64,000 bases of DNA from Serpentinimonas maccroryi (GTDB lineage Bacteria; Pseudomonadota; Gammaproteobacteria; Burkholderiales; Burkholderiaceae_C): assembly GCF_000828915.1 (NCBI RefSeq), contig NZ_AP014569.1:2294001-2358000 (forward strand), written 5' to 3'. Below, in pieces: positions 34,590 to 58,787 of the stretch (its first letter is position 1; every line of letters starts with the position of its first letter). The notes below the pieces were generated by a model. It did no database searches, was not told the origin of the DNA, and saw only the letters and a list, made by a program, of their open reading frames with translations. The translations under genes were made by a program, and so were the position numbers.

Positions 34590-34607
34590 GGCTGAGAGGC
34601 TGAGCTC
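34590..34607 (+). repeat. GGCTGAG-type repeat, copy between alr and the TauE gene
   Basis: The 18-nt sequence GGCTGAGAGGCTGAGCTC is identical to 55957-55974. It lies in the 120-nt intergenic gap. The unit is an imperfect tandem of GGCTGAG. Confidence 0.7.
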
Positions 34608-54938: not shown

Positions 54939-55904
54939 ATGCTCGACCCACGCCAACTGCAAGCCCTGAGCGCCGTGGTGGAGCAGCGCAGCTTTGCCGC
55001 TGCGGCGCGCAGCCTGTCGCTGTCGGTGGCAGCGGTGTCGTTGCGCCTCAAGGCGCTCGAAGATGCGCTCGGCCAGCGCCTACTGGTGCGCGGCAAGCAG
55101 GTGCGCGCCACCGCCGCCGGCCAGACCCTGCTGGCGCACGCCAAACGGGTGCAGCTGATGGAGGCCGACTTGCTGAACGCGATCGCCGGTGCGGCTCCCG
55201 AGCCGCAGCGGCGCGCGCACTGGCACAGCCTGTCGGTGGCGGTCAATGCCGACTCGGTGGCGAGCTGGTTCCTGCCCGGTGTCGCGCCCCTGCTGCTGCA
55301 GCAGCGCCTGCTGCTCGATGTCTGGATCGACGACCAGGACCACACCCACGACGCGCTGCACAGCGGCGAGGTGATCGGCTGCGTCAGCACGCTGGCGCAG
55401 GCCATGCGCGGCTGCATGGCCGAGCCGCTGGGCACCATGCGCTACCGCTGCGTGGCCACGCCCGAGGTGGCGCAGCGCAGCCGCAGCCCCGCAGGGGCGG
55501 TGTCGGTGCACCGCCTGCTGGAGTGGCCGGCGGTGATCTTCAACCGCAAAGACGCGCTGCAAGACCGCTTTCTGGCGCAACACTTCGGCCTGCACCAAGC
55601 GCACTACCCGCGCCACTTCGCCCCGGCCATCGACGCCTTCGAGGCAGCGATCGACCTCGGGCTGGGCTGGGGCATGGTGCCCGAGCTGCACCTGCTGCGC
55701 CGGGCGGCCACGGCGGTGCCGCTGGTGGACCTGCTGCCCGGGGCCAGCGTGGCGGTGGCCTTGTACTGGCACCACTGGGCGCACGAGCCGCTCAGCGCGC
55801 AGCGCCTGACCGAGGCCGTCAAGGCCGCAGCGGCGGCGGCGCTGCCAAAGCCCGGTACAGCCACCGAGGCGGCCACCGGCGCGGCCGCACCCGACAAGCC
55901 CTAA
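54939..55904 (+). CDS. argP: LysR-type regulator ArgP
   Basis: 321 residues from the ATG at 54939. Winged helix at 3-60 (LQALSAVVEQRSFAAAARSLSLSVAAVSLRLKALEDALGQRLLVRG) and a substrate-binding domain with ArgP-like features, VNADSVASWFLPGVAPLLL and IFNRKDALQDRFLAQHFG. ArgP/LysG senses arginine and lysine and activates argO. The Ala/Pro/Thr-rich tail (about 300-321) is longer than usual. The stop codon is followed at once by a stray copy of the argS start region. Confidence 0.9.
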   Translation: MLDPRQLQALSAVVEQRSFAAAARSLSLSVAAVSLRLKALEDALGQRLLVRGKQVRATAAGQTLLAHAKRVQLMEADLLNAIAGAAPEPQRRAHWHSLSVAVNADSVASWFLPGVAPLLLQQRLLLDVWIDDQDHTHDALHSGEVIGCVSTLAQAMRGCMAEPLGTMRYRCVATPEVAQRSRSPAGAVSVHRLLEWPAVIFNRKDALQDRFLAQHFGLHQAHYPRHFAPAIDAFEAAIDLGLGWGMVPELHLLRRAATAVPLVDLLPGASVAVALYWHHWAHEPLSAQRLTEAVKAAAAAALPKPGTATEAATGAAAPDKP

Positions 55905-55913
55905 AATCCCCCC

Positions 55914-55970
55914 ATGCACAGTGTCAAATCCGAACTGCTCGCCGCCTTGGCGCGCGGGCTGAGAGGCTGA
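55914..55970 (+). pseudogene. Stray 5' fragment of argS
   Basis: The ATG at 55914 opens [18 protein letters not shown], then a stop at 55968. The first 14 codons copy the true argS start at 57084 with one base change, and a similar CCTAAAATC box lies just upstream in both. The copy breaks off exactly where GGCTGAGAGGCTGAGCTC begins. It is a remnant of duplication, not a functional gene. Confidence 0.85.
55919..55953 (+). repeat. 35-nt direct repeat, left copy (argS start)
   Basis: Identical to 57089-57123, the first codons of argS. The 1.17-kb interval between the copies contains ytfE and the sirB2 remnant. Confidence 0.95.
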
Positions 55971-55974
55971 GCTC
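55957..55974 (+). repeat. GGCTGAG-type repeat at the left edge of the ric cassette
   Basis: GGCTGAGAGGCTGAGCTC, identical to 34590-34607. It begins where the argS homology ends. Confidence 0.8.
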
Positions 55975-56073
55975 CGGAAGGGGCCGATACGACTTTGGGA
56001 GGATGGGGCCTACGCCCCCTGGATGCAGGTTTTTTCCCGACAATAAAGCTTGGTTATTCAAGCAAGGAACATC

Positions 56074-56748
56074 ATGCACACCCCATCGATCGCGCACCCG
56101 CTGCTGCAGCAAACCTTGGGCCAGATCGCGCTGGCCATACCCGGGGCCACGGCCTTGTTGCGCCAGCACAAGCTGGATTTCTGTTGCCAAGGCGAACGCA
56201 CCTTGGCCTTGGCCTGCGCCGAGCGCACCCACGAGTTGCCGGCCCTGCTCGAGCAGCTCGAAGCGCTGCAGCGCCAGAGCGCGCCGCTGGCCCCCTGCAG
56301 CGACCCGGCGCAGTTGATCGACCGCATTCTGGAGCGCTACCACGACACCCACCGGCAACAATTGCCCGAACTGGCGCGGATGGCGCGCCGGGTCGAGGCC
56401 GTGCACCAGACGCATCCTGCGGTGCCCGTCGGGCTGGCCGATTTTCTGGAGCAGATGCAAGCCGAGCTCGAAAACCACATGGCCAAAGAGGAGCAGATTT
56501 TGTTTCCGCTGCTGCGCCGCAGTGGCCAGGCGCCGATTCGGGGCCCGATTGCGGTCATGCGCCACGAGCACCTCGAACACGGTGCCAGGCTCGAGCGCCT
56601 CGCCGAGCTGACCTGCAACCACACCCCGCCGCCCGACGCCTGCACCACCTGGCGCGCGCTGTACGCCGGCACCGAGCGTTTGGTGGACGATCTGATGCAC
56701 CACATCCATCTGGAAAACAACGTGCTCTTTCCGATGTTCGAGCGCTGA
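56074..56748 (+). CDS. ytfE: Iron-sulfur cluster repair di-iron protein (RIC/YtfE)
   Basis: 224 residues from the ATG at 56074, with AAGGAA upstream. The N-terminal ScdA-type domain has the paired Cys in QHKLDFCCQGERTL (Cys37, Cys38). The hemerythrin-like domain carries the di-iron ligands in ERYHDTHRQ, ENHMAKEEQILFP, MRHEHLEHGARL and HHIHLENNVLFPMF. It repairs iron-sulfur centres damaged by NO or oxidants. Its right flank has GGCTGAG repeats. The cytochrome c' gene at 11148 may act against the same stress. Confidence 0.95.
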   Translation: MHTPSIAHPLLQQTLGQIALAIPGATALLRQHKLDFCCQGERTLALACAERTHELPALLEQLEALQRQSAPLAPCSDPAQLIDRILERYHDTHRQQLPELARMARRVEAVHQTHPAVPVGLADFLEQMQAELENHMAKEEQILFPLLRRSGQAPIRGPIAVMRHEHLEHGARLERLAELTCNHTPPPDACTTWRALYAGTERLVDDLMHHIHLENNVLFPMFER

Positions 56749-56766
56749 GGGGCTGAGCGGCTGAGG
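56747..56766 (+). repeat. GGCTGAG-type repeats at the right edge of ytfE
   Basis: Imperfect tandem GAGGGGCTGAGCGGCTGAGG directly after the ytfE stop. The sirB2 remnant, on the other strand, ends 10 nt further on. Confidence 0.6.
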
Positions 56767-56776
56767 GGGCGGATGC

Positions 56777-56991
56777 TCAAGGGCTGACATGGCCCAGCAA
56801 CAACGCCAGCCCGGCCACGAGCAGCAGCGTGTCGATGGCCACGCTCAGGCCGCGCACCCTTGGGCGCATGGGCCAAGGCGCCTGCCGCAACACCCCCCCA
56901 GCCATCGGGCCGCAAAAAGCGCCAGACTGCAGGCCACGCTGAGCACATGCAGGTGTTTGATGAACGCGTAGTGAACGCCGATTTCAGCCAT
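56777..56991 (-). pseudogene. Truncated, frameshifted sirB2-like gene
   Basis: From the ATG at 56991 the frame reads MAEIGVHYAFIKHLHVLS and SLALFAARWLGG, like the start of SirB2 membrane proteins. At a run of seven G (minus strand; C at 56893-56899) the frame breaks; adding one G restores VLRQAPWPMRPRVRGLSV and AIDTLLLVAGLALLL, again SirB2-like, to a stop at 56777. Even corrected it is about 72 residues, against about 120-130 for the family. It is truncated at the GGCTGAG repeat zone. A sequencing error in the G run cannot be excluded, but the short 3' end remains. Confidence 0.6.
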
Positions 56992-57083
56992 GAAGCAAAG
57001 GGGCTGCGGCCAGCCGCTGGCTTCGGTGCATTTTGAGGCACATTTTTAGGTACAACGGCGCCGAAGGCCTAAAATCAAGGGTT

Positions 57084-58787
57084 ATGCTCAGTGTCAAATC
57101 CGAACTGCTCGCCGCCTTGGCGCTCGAGCTGGAACGCCTCGCCCCCGGTGCCGCCAGCTTGGCGCGCTTCGAATCGCCCAAGCTCGCCGCGCACGGCGAC
57201 TGGGCCTGCACCGCCGCCATGCCGCTGGCCAAGCAGCTCAAAACCCAGCCGCGCCAGCTGGCGCAGCAGTTGGTTGCGGCCTTGCAAGGCACGGCGGCTT
57301 TTGCGCGCTGGGTGCAGGCGCTCGAAATCGCCGGCCCGGGCTTCATCAACCTGCGCTTGCAGCCGGCGGCGCAGCAGCAGGTGGTGCGCGAGGTGCTGCA
57401 AGCCGGGGCGCGCTTTGGTTACCAGCCCGAGCACGGCCAGCGCGTGCTGGTCGAGTTCGTCTCGGCCAACCCGACCGGGCCGCTGCATGTCGGCCACGCG
57501 CGCCAAGCGGCGCTGGGCGACGCCATCTGCAACCTGCTGCAAACCCAAGGCTGGCAGGTGCAGCGCGAGTTTTATTACAACGACGCTGGGGTGCAGATCG
57601 ACACGCTGGCGCGCAGCGTGCAGTTGCGCGCCCAGGGGCTGAAGCCGGGCGACCCCGACTGGCCCGAGGCCGCCTACAACGGCGACTACATCGCCGACAT
57701 CGCCGCCGGTTTTCTGGCGCGCCAGAGCGTGCGCGCCGACGACCGCAGCTACAGCGCCAGCGGCGACCCGGCTGACCTCGACGGCATGCGCGAATTTGCC
57801 GTGGCTTGGCTGCGCCATGAGCAAGACCTGGACTTGCAGGCGCTGGCGGTGCGCTTCGACCACTACTACCTCGAGTCCAGCCTTTACAGCAGCGGCCGCG
57901 TGGCGCAAACCGTGCAGCGCCTGGTCGAATCGGGCCACACCTACGAGCAAGACGGCGCCCTGTGGCTGCGCAGCACCGATTTTGGCGACGACAAAGACCG
58001 TGTCATGCGCAAGTCCGCCACCATTGGCGCCGACGGCAGCCGCACCGAGGGCGGCTACACCTACTTCGTGCCCGACGTGGCCTACCACATCAGCAAGTGG
58101 GAACGCGGTTTTGCGCGCGCCATCAACATCCAGGGCAGCGACCACCACGGCACCATCGCGCGCGTGCGCGCCGGGCTGCAAGCGGCCGGGGTCGGCATCC
58201 CGAGCGGCTACCCCGACTACGTGCTGCACACCATGGTGCGCGTGCTGCGCGGCGGGCAAGAGGTCAAAATATCGAAGCGCGCCGGCAGCTACGTGACGCT
58301 GCGCGACCTGATCGAGTGGACCAGCCGCGACGCCGTGCGTTTTTTCCTGCTCTCGCGCAAGCCCGACACCGAATACACCTTCGACGTCGATCTGGCGCTG
58401 CAACAAAACAACGACAACCCGGTCTACTACGTGCAGTACGCTCACGCGCGCATCTGCTCGGTGCTGGCGGCTTGGGGCGGTGCGCCCGAGCAGCTGCAAG
58501 CGGCCGACCTGAGCCCGCTGCAAAGCCCGCAAGCGCAAGCGCTGCTGCGCCTGCTGGCGCGCTACCCCGAGATGCTGAGCAACGCCGCCGCCGATTTTGC
58601 CCCGCACGACCTGAGCTTTTATCTGCGCGAACTGGCCGCCATGTACCACAGCTACTACGACGCCGAGCGGATTTTGGTCGATGACCCGCTGCTCAAACAC
58701 GCCCGGCTGGCGCTGGTGGCGGCGACCGCGCAAGTGTTGCACAATGGCTTGGCGCTGCTCGGTGTGAGCGCGCCCACGAAGATGTGA
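57084..58787 (+). CDS. argS: Arginyl-tRNA synthetase
   Basis: 567 residues from the ATG at 57084. The N-terminal additional domain is followed by the HIGH-type motif [17 protein letters not shown] (about residue 135), the catalytic core with [15 protein letters not shown] and [11 protein letters not shown] (in place of KMSKS), and the anticodon-binding C-terminus ending [16 protein letters not shown]. Normal length. The 5' end, with its CCTAAAATC box, is duplicated at 55900-55953. It overlaps the SPOR gene by 4 nt. Confidence 0.97.
57089..57123 (+). repeat. 35-nt direct repeat, right copy (in argS)
   Basis: Identical to 55919-55953. This copy is part of the intact gene. Confidence 0.95.

Follow-up and report, generated by a model that had tools for sequence, protein, structure and literature searches.

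A ytfE-bearing segment in the start of argS in Serpentinimonas maccroryi B1, probably a single insertion with target duplication

The DNA analysed here, called the window throughout, is a stretch of 64,000 nucleotides from Serpentinimonas maccroryi B1 (G000:C1:2294001-2358000; the own genome, G000, has 2,623,236 bases). Serpentinimonas is an alkaline-spring bacterium of which three species have been sequenced, and the two other species, G001 and G002, are the sisters of our comparisons. Between argP and argS the window holds a segment of about 1.1 kb that contains ytfE (ric), coding for an iron-sulfur cluster repair protein, and a decayed sirB2, and that is bracketed by two copies of the argS start. 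We think it probable that this arrangement arose by a one-off illegitimate insertion in the B1 line, not driven by a transposon, in which the target was duplicated, and the locus looks like an ordinary insertion, not a new mobile element.

The argS start is present twice as a direct repeat of 48 nt with 3 mismatches (94% identity; 55914-55961 and 57084-57131), with a start-to-start spacing of 1170. The perfect 35-nt repeat of the argS 5' region to which an earlier note on this DNA had drawn attention (55919-55953 and 57089-57123) sits within it and is the longest exact repeat of the window, the next longest having 20 nt. That note had also described a similar box before each copy and an enclosed stretch of about 1.1 kb with ytfE and a broken sirB2, and both descriptions hold: CCTAAAATC occurs at 55900 and 57068, before the two copies, and these are its only occurrences on the two strands of the window. 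The likeness of the copies extends slightly beyond the box on its upstream side (by eye, CCGA-CAAGCCC and CCGA-AGGCC), and counting this stretch the duplication may be about 70 nt long, reaching back to about 57060. The left copy now codes for 18 codons before it meets a stop in the GGCTGAG array.

Comparison with the sisters places the segment as an extra piece in an otherwise simple junction. In both G001 and G002 argP is followed directly by a single argS, without ytfE, which is the adjacent pair that the earlier note had suggested looking for; the window has two argS starts against one in each sister. Both sisters can be aligned without a break from argP as far as 55961, and the DNA alignment restarts at 57083 or 57084, argP itself being about 90% identical between the window and both sisters. 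In box, upstream bases and spacer the argS promoter of the sisters, CCGACAAGCCCTAAAATCCCCC, agrees with the window's left copy and not with the right one, which makes the left copy the site of the original argP-argS junction. Searched with the insert DNA, G002 matched at argS only; in G001 one GGCTGAG array matched as well as argS. YtfE had no match in G001 or G002 (59 of 200 family genomes match, the own genome among the 59), nor did the SirB family, PF04247, which matched in 20 of 60 genomes and also left the broken gene of the own genome unmatched.

Table 1. Features of the argP-argS interval, in window coordinates.
Feature	Position	Strand	Basis
argP, LysR-type regulator, left flank of the insertion	54939..55904	+	NCBIfam NF009888 ArgP, 381.7 bits, cut-off 297
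Left argS copy: CCTAAAATC box 55900-55908 and first 48 nt of argS, 55914-55961	55900..55961	+	sister alignment
GGCTGAGAGGCTGAGCTC, two units of the 8-nt tandem, ending the truncated argS frame	55957..55974	+	
Inserted segment, about 1.1 kb, not at this place in either sister	55962..57083	+	right edge uncertain
ytfE (ric), intact, di-iron iron-sulfur cluster repair protein, 224 aa	56074..56748	+	NF008221, PDB 5fnn
8-nt GCTGAGGG-type array, about 3 units, starting at the ytfE stop codon	56745..56766	+	
sirB2 remnant: start retained, frame broken, second half gone	56777..56991	-	PF04247 in two frames
Right argS copy: CCTAAAATC box 57068-57076 and argS 5' end 57084-57131, within intact argS	57068..57131	+	
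argS, intact, arginine-tRNA ligase	57084..58787	+	TIGR00456, 394.6 bits, cut-off 261.65

In the explanation that we favour, a piece of about 1.1 kb with ytfE and sirB2 would have been joined into the first argS codons, just past argP, in the B1 lineage, and the repeat of 48-70 bp would be the target sequence duplicated by that event. The duplication could have come from the fill-in of a widely staggered break, or from a homologous joint on one side, at argS, combined with illegitimate joining at GCTG on the left side; the two routes are indistinguishable here. The left joint lies at GCTG, which is common to argS (GAGCTGGAA) and the array (GGGCTGAG), and this shared motif could have aided the joining. 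The left copy keeps the genus-wide argS promoter. The right copy would have retained the full argS; sirB2 would have decayed and ytfE been retained, perhaps since B1 respires nitrate, and the GGCTGAG arrays would be local 8-nt tandems and not the agent of the event. Homology-facilitated illegitimate recombination on uptake of foreign DNA (PMC3240628) likewise yields a one-off gain without a transposase and could likewise pair one homologous joint, as at argS, with a short microhomology. Unlike in that process, no argS-anchored donor is known here, and a long target duplication is not a defining feature of it; the likeness is confined to how the two would work. If the insertion took place as proposed, it would illustrate, in a small and clean example, how a stress-response gene can enter the beginning of an essential one that survives through the duplication of its own start, and the repeat would permit a clean later loss of the insert. 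It may help in understanding how genes are gained and lost when mobile elements play no part. A wider claim about repeats at breakpoints fails.

Such a loss is also the basis of another account, in which the cassette was ancestral to the three species and the ancestor of G001 and G002 lost it by recombination between the argS copies. The 48-bp direct repeat is a natural substrate for excision, and the loss would restore one intact argS behind the left promoter, which the sisters do carry. One loss would account for both absences because G001 and G002 differ less from one another at argS fourfold sites (0.123) than either does from B1 (0.147 and 0.176). Nothing directly contradicts this account; three outgroup argS loci (L016, L018, L019) have neither ytfE nor argP within 1.5 kb before argS, and they polarise the change weakly because argP is missing there too. 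We regard an ancestral cassette as rather unlikely, yet as an account to be reckoned with.

Several points weigh against a simple insertion in the B1 line. The spacer between box and start is AAGGGTT in the right copy and CCCCC in the left, which leaves the extent of the duplication before the ATG unsure. The event is undatable from three differences in 48 nt, argS fourfold sites differing by 15-18% between B1 and the sisters, and dating by repeat divergence was rejected because the sites are too few. A near donor was not found among family genomes, plasmids and phages, the best YtfE being 68% identical over 150 columns. Nitrate use by S. maccroryi B1 is reported in PMC8513617, and narG is present in G000 and G001 and was not found in G002; G001 thus carries narG yet lacks ytfE, which makes a selective story for the retention of ytfE weak, and the link between ytfE and nitrate is only suggestive. 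Finally, we compared 60 other ytfE loci (L043-L071, L106-L135 and L141, L069 and L113 being one contig) with flanks of 1.5 to 4 kb, shortened in some by contig ends, and six of them (L047, L048, L050, L052, L057 and L061) have an ArgP-family gene upstream of ytfE and in its orientation. The site beside argP may for this reason not be chance, and insertion as we draw it leaves the ArgP link unexplained. Incoming DNA could have carried argP-nsrR-ytfE, much as several family genomes do, and paired at argP, with nsrR lost afterwards. In G012 the ArgP-family protein exceeds the ArgP cut-off (422.2 against 297), and the order is the argP-family gene, a divergent nsrR-like gene and ytfE, with a LysE-like exporter (by eye) beyond argP, where the window's ArgO as query gave zero matches; an nsrR-like gene is found in the flanks of 34 of the 60 loci. 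The window ArgP is, however, 40% identical to the G012 protein and about 90% to those of the sisters, so argP was not replaced, and what separates argP from ytfE in the window is a piece of argS and not donor DNA. We consider entry by pairing at argP quite improbable.

A mobile origin fares worse, as does a rearrangement within the genome. Direct repeats of the target flank the insert of the window as they do a transposon, but insertion sequences and miniature inverted-repeat transposable elements duplicate short targets of 2-14 bp, and a 48-bp duplication exceeds those that transposons usually leave; the repeat here has 48 nt at 94%, or up to 70 bp, and neither a transposase nor terminal repeats nor a second copy came to light. 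In the frames scanned, Pfam gives only the ytfE domains and the SirB pieces for the insert, five further frames being empty at E 0.01, in line with the earlier statement that no transposase is present. Of nine inverted pairs listed for 55700-57400, none joins the ends of the insert, and a search of the own genome for a second insert copy gave the window itself as the sole long match. The earlier suggestion of a small non-autonomous element thus finds neither its terminal inverted repeats nor another copy. A small element or gene cassette ending in GGCTGAG arrays, mobilised by an enzyme encoded elsewhere, would fit the arrays on both sides of ytfE (55957 and 56751) and the five exact genomic copies of a 15-mer against about 0.01 expected; the arrays are direct and not inverted, the cassette is single in the genome, and the sister match crosses the other four 15-mer copies in 7 of 8 comparisons, which leaves such an element very unlikely. 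As for unequal recombination at the arrays inside the B1 genome, a rearrangement and not an acquisition, GGCTGAGAGGCTGAGCTC is exact at 34590 (34590-34607, between alr and tauE, where the earlier note had reported it) and at 55957, in the same orientation and 21 kb apart. The pair alone is weak evidence because it is one of eight separate exact repeat pairs of at least 18 nt in the window; both sisters have an unbroken alr-tauE region around 34590, and the own genome has no second source copy of ytfE and no SirB gene elsewhere. We give this rearrangement hardly any credence.

The arrays themselves sit mostly at gene ends. The 15-mer core GGCTGAGAGGCTGAG, picked for counting because of its repetition here, has five exact copies in the own genome and none in either sister, a reversed control pattern giving 0; at 0.0006 to 0.011 copies expected from composition models of order 0 to 4, it is enriched, and it is this count over the whole genome that is striking, not the 18-nt pair. 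Four of the copies lie outside the locus. The DNA match to both sisters continues unbroken through the repeat at 236253, 1624834 and alr-tauE, and that to G002 also at 806427 (the comparison covers these four copies and not the similar site at 178359, whose spacer is 2 bases), and the idea that the 18-mer and its variants form a dispersed repeat at gene breakpoints does not stand up to these matches. In G001 there is, at 806427, a difference in gene content adjoining the repeat, in this one sister. Set against G001:C89:52089, the locus L100 (G000:C1:806427) matches on its right side, and its left DNA, with a DoxX-like gene by eye, is unmatched in G001.

With gene ends judged by eye, the copies at 236253 and 806427 include the stop codon of the upstream gene, that at 1624834 closes a four-unit 8-nt array beginning at a stop codon, and the alr-tauE copy lies about 75 nt past the alr stop. 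The GGCTGAGN 8-nt arrays, mostly at or just past stop codons, bring a TGA into one reading frame after another. At 1624834 a single GGGCTGAGGC or GGGTTGAGGC stands at the same stop in the sisters, and this one unit points to local tandem expansion as the origin of the array there; a unit of this kind was not seen in the sisters at the remaining three sites, where the intergenic DNA is too diverged to show how the arrays arose. G001 has an array of its own, of GGCTGAGC, directly after a gene end, and G002 a 6-bp GGCTGA tandem array with seven overlapping matches (G002:C1:155988-156035). It is highly doubtful that GGCTGAGAGGCTGAG is a species-specific short repeat that the lineage adds at gene ends and that spreads by other means than slippage. 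Were it so, the lineage would have a dispersed repeat of a new and very small kind that supplies stop codons and at 55957 also closes the truncated argS frame.

YtfE repairs iron-sulfur centres harmed by nitric oxide and oxidants. The window protein exceeds two NCBIfam equivalog cut-offs (NF008221, 273.3 against 254; TIGR03652, 225.2 against 204.7) and matches PDB 5fnn with E 8.3e-59 and 202.6 bits. The di-iron ligands of E. coli YtfE are H84, H129, E133, H160, H204 and E208, and all six positions are identical in the alignment with 5fnn. Like the YtfE/RIC family, the protein keeps the ScdA_N and hemerythrin domains, the iron ligands and the two-cysteine motif. Its surroundings differ from those of other ytfE loci in that it adjoins argS, which was in the flanks of 0 of the 60, and in having no nsrR-like gene beside it, unlike 34 of the 60; NsrR gave only sub-threshold matches in G000, G001 and G002 (43-45 bits against 182). 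The order argP-(argS start)-ytfE recalls argP-(nsrR)-ytfE. At L139:2186-4464 a divergent nsrR-like gene sits between an ArgP-family regulator and ytfE. The 99-nt leader of the window ytfE lacks a palindrome like AAAGATTCA...TGAATCTTT, seen by eye in many of 24 upstream regions. Just upstream of ytfE, at 56048-56063, there is an inverted repeat, GCTTGGTTATTCAAGC (GCTTG-N6-CAAGC), a possible operator; its CTTG-N6-CAAG core was in 0 of 52 other ytfE upstream regions scanned (L065 and L136 being one place).

The sirB2 piece falls short of a SirB2 gene, in which PF04247 would be full-length and over the cut-off: the domain appears in two pieces and two frames, at 22.1 and 18.5 bits against 30.9, and we call it a remnant. 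The earlier note had it cut at the GGCTGAG tandems; it does end near the array, but the exact cut does not hold, the frame stopping about 10 nt short. A conserved sirB2-ytfE pair was considered and rejected, SirB2 flanking 3 of the 60 other loci (G026, G139 and Marinobacter similis) in differing arrangements.

The closest YtfE comes from a Comamonadaceae metagenome-assembled genome, G083 (the same contig as CSMAG_1286), and groups with the window protein at 91% in the Shimodaira-Hasegawa-like approximate likelihood ratio test (SH-aLRT) in a tree built quickly from 60 rows, the branch not being a starred one. A plasmid source was rejected, as none of the YtfE matches in 120 plasmid records reaches 60% identity and, among the 10 of 22 plasmid records listed, matches to the insert DNA cover at most 39%; so was a phage source, four records of the phage collection matching at 27-49% identity. 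No paper naming both 'ytfE' and 'Serpentinimonas' was found in the literature searched, and in the portions available of papers on the mechanism and on ytfE with SirB2 nothing concerning the locus was noticed.

Rfam gave zero matches on 55850-57150 up to E 5, and a structured RNA in the interval was discarded, since the ytfE leader also folds like its shuffles (z -0.52). A promoter and terminator scan called zero sigma-70-like sites in 55800-57200 and four terminator-like sites, against a shuffle mean of 1.3. The guanine-plus-cytosine (GC) content and third-position GC of ytfE (66.5% and 85.8%) are alike those of argS (67.8% and 87.5%), and GC is lower in the ytfE leader (53.5%) and in the gap before argS (54.9%). 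Compared with the sisters, argP has a C-terminal extension (55840-55904), with a stop codon that shares bases with the TAAAAT of the argS box.

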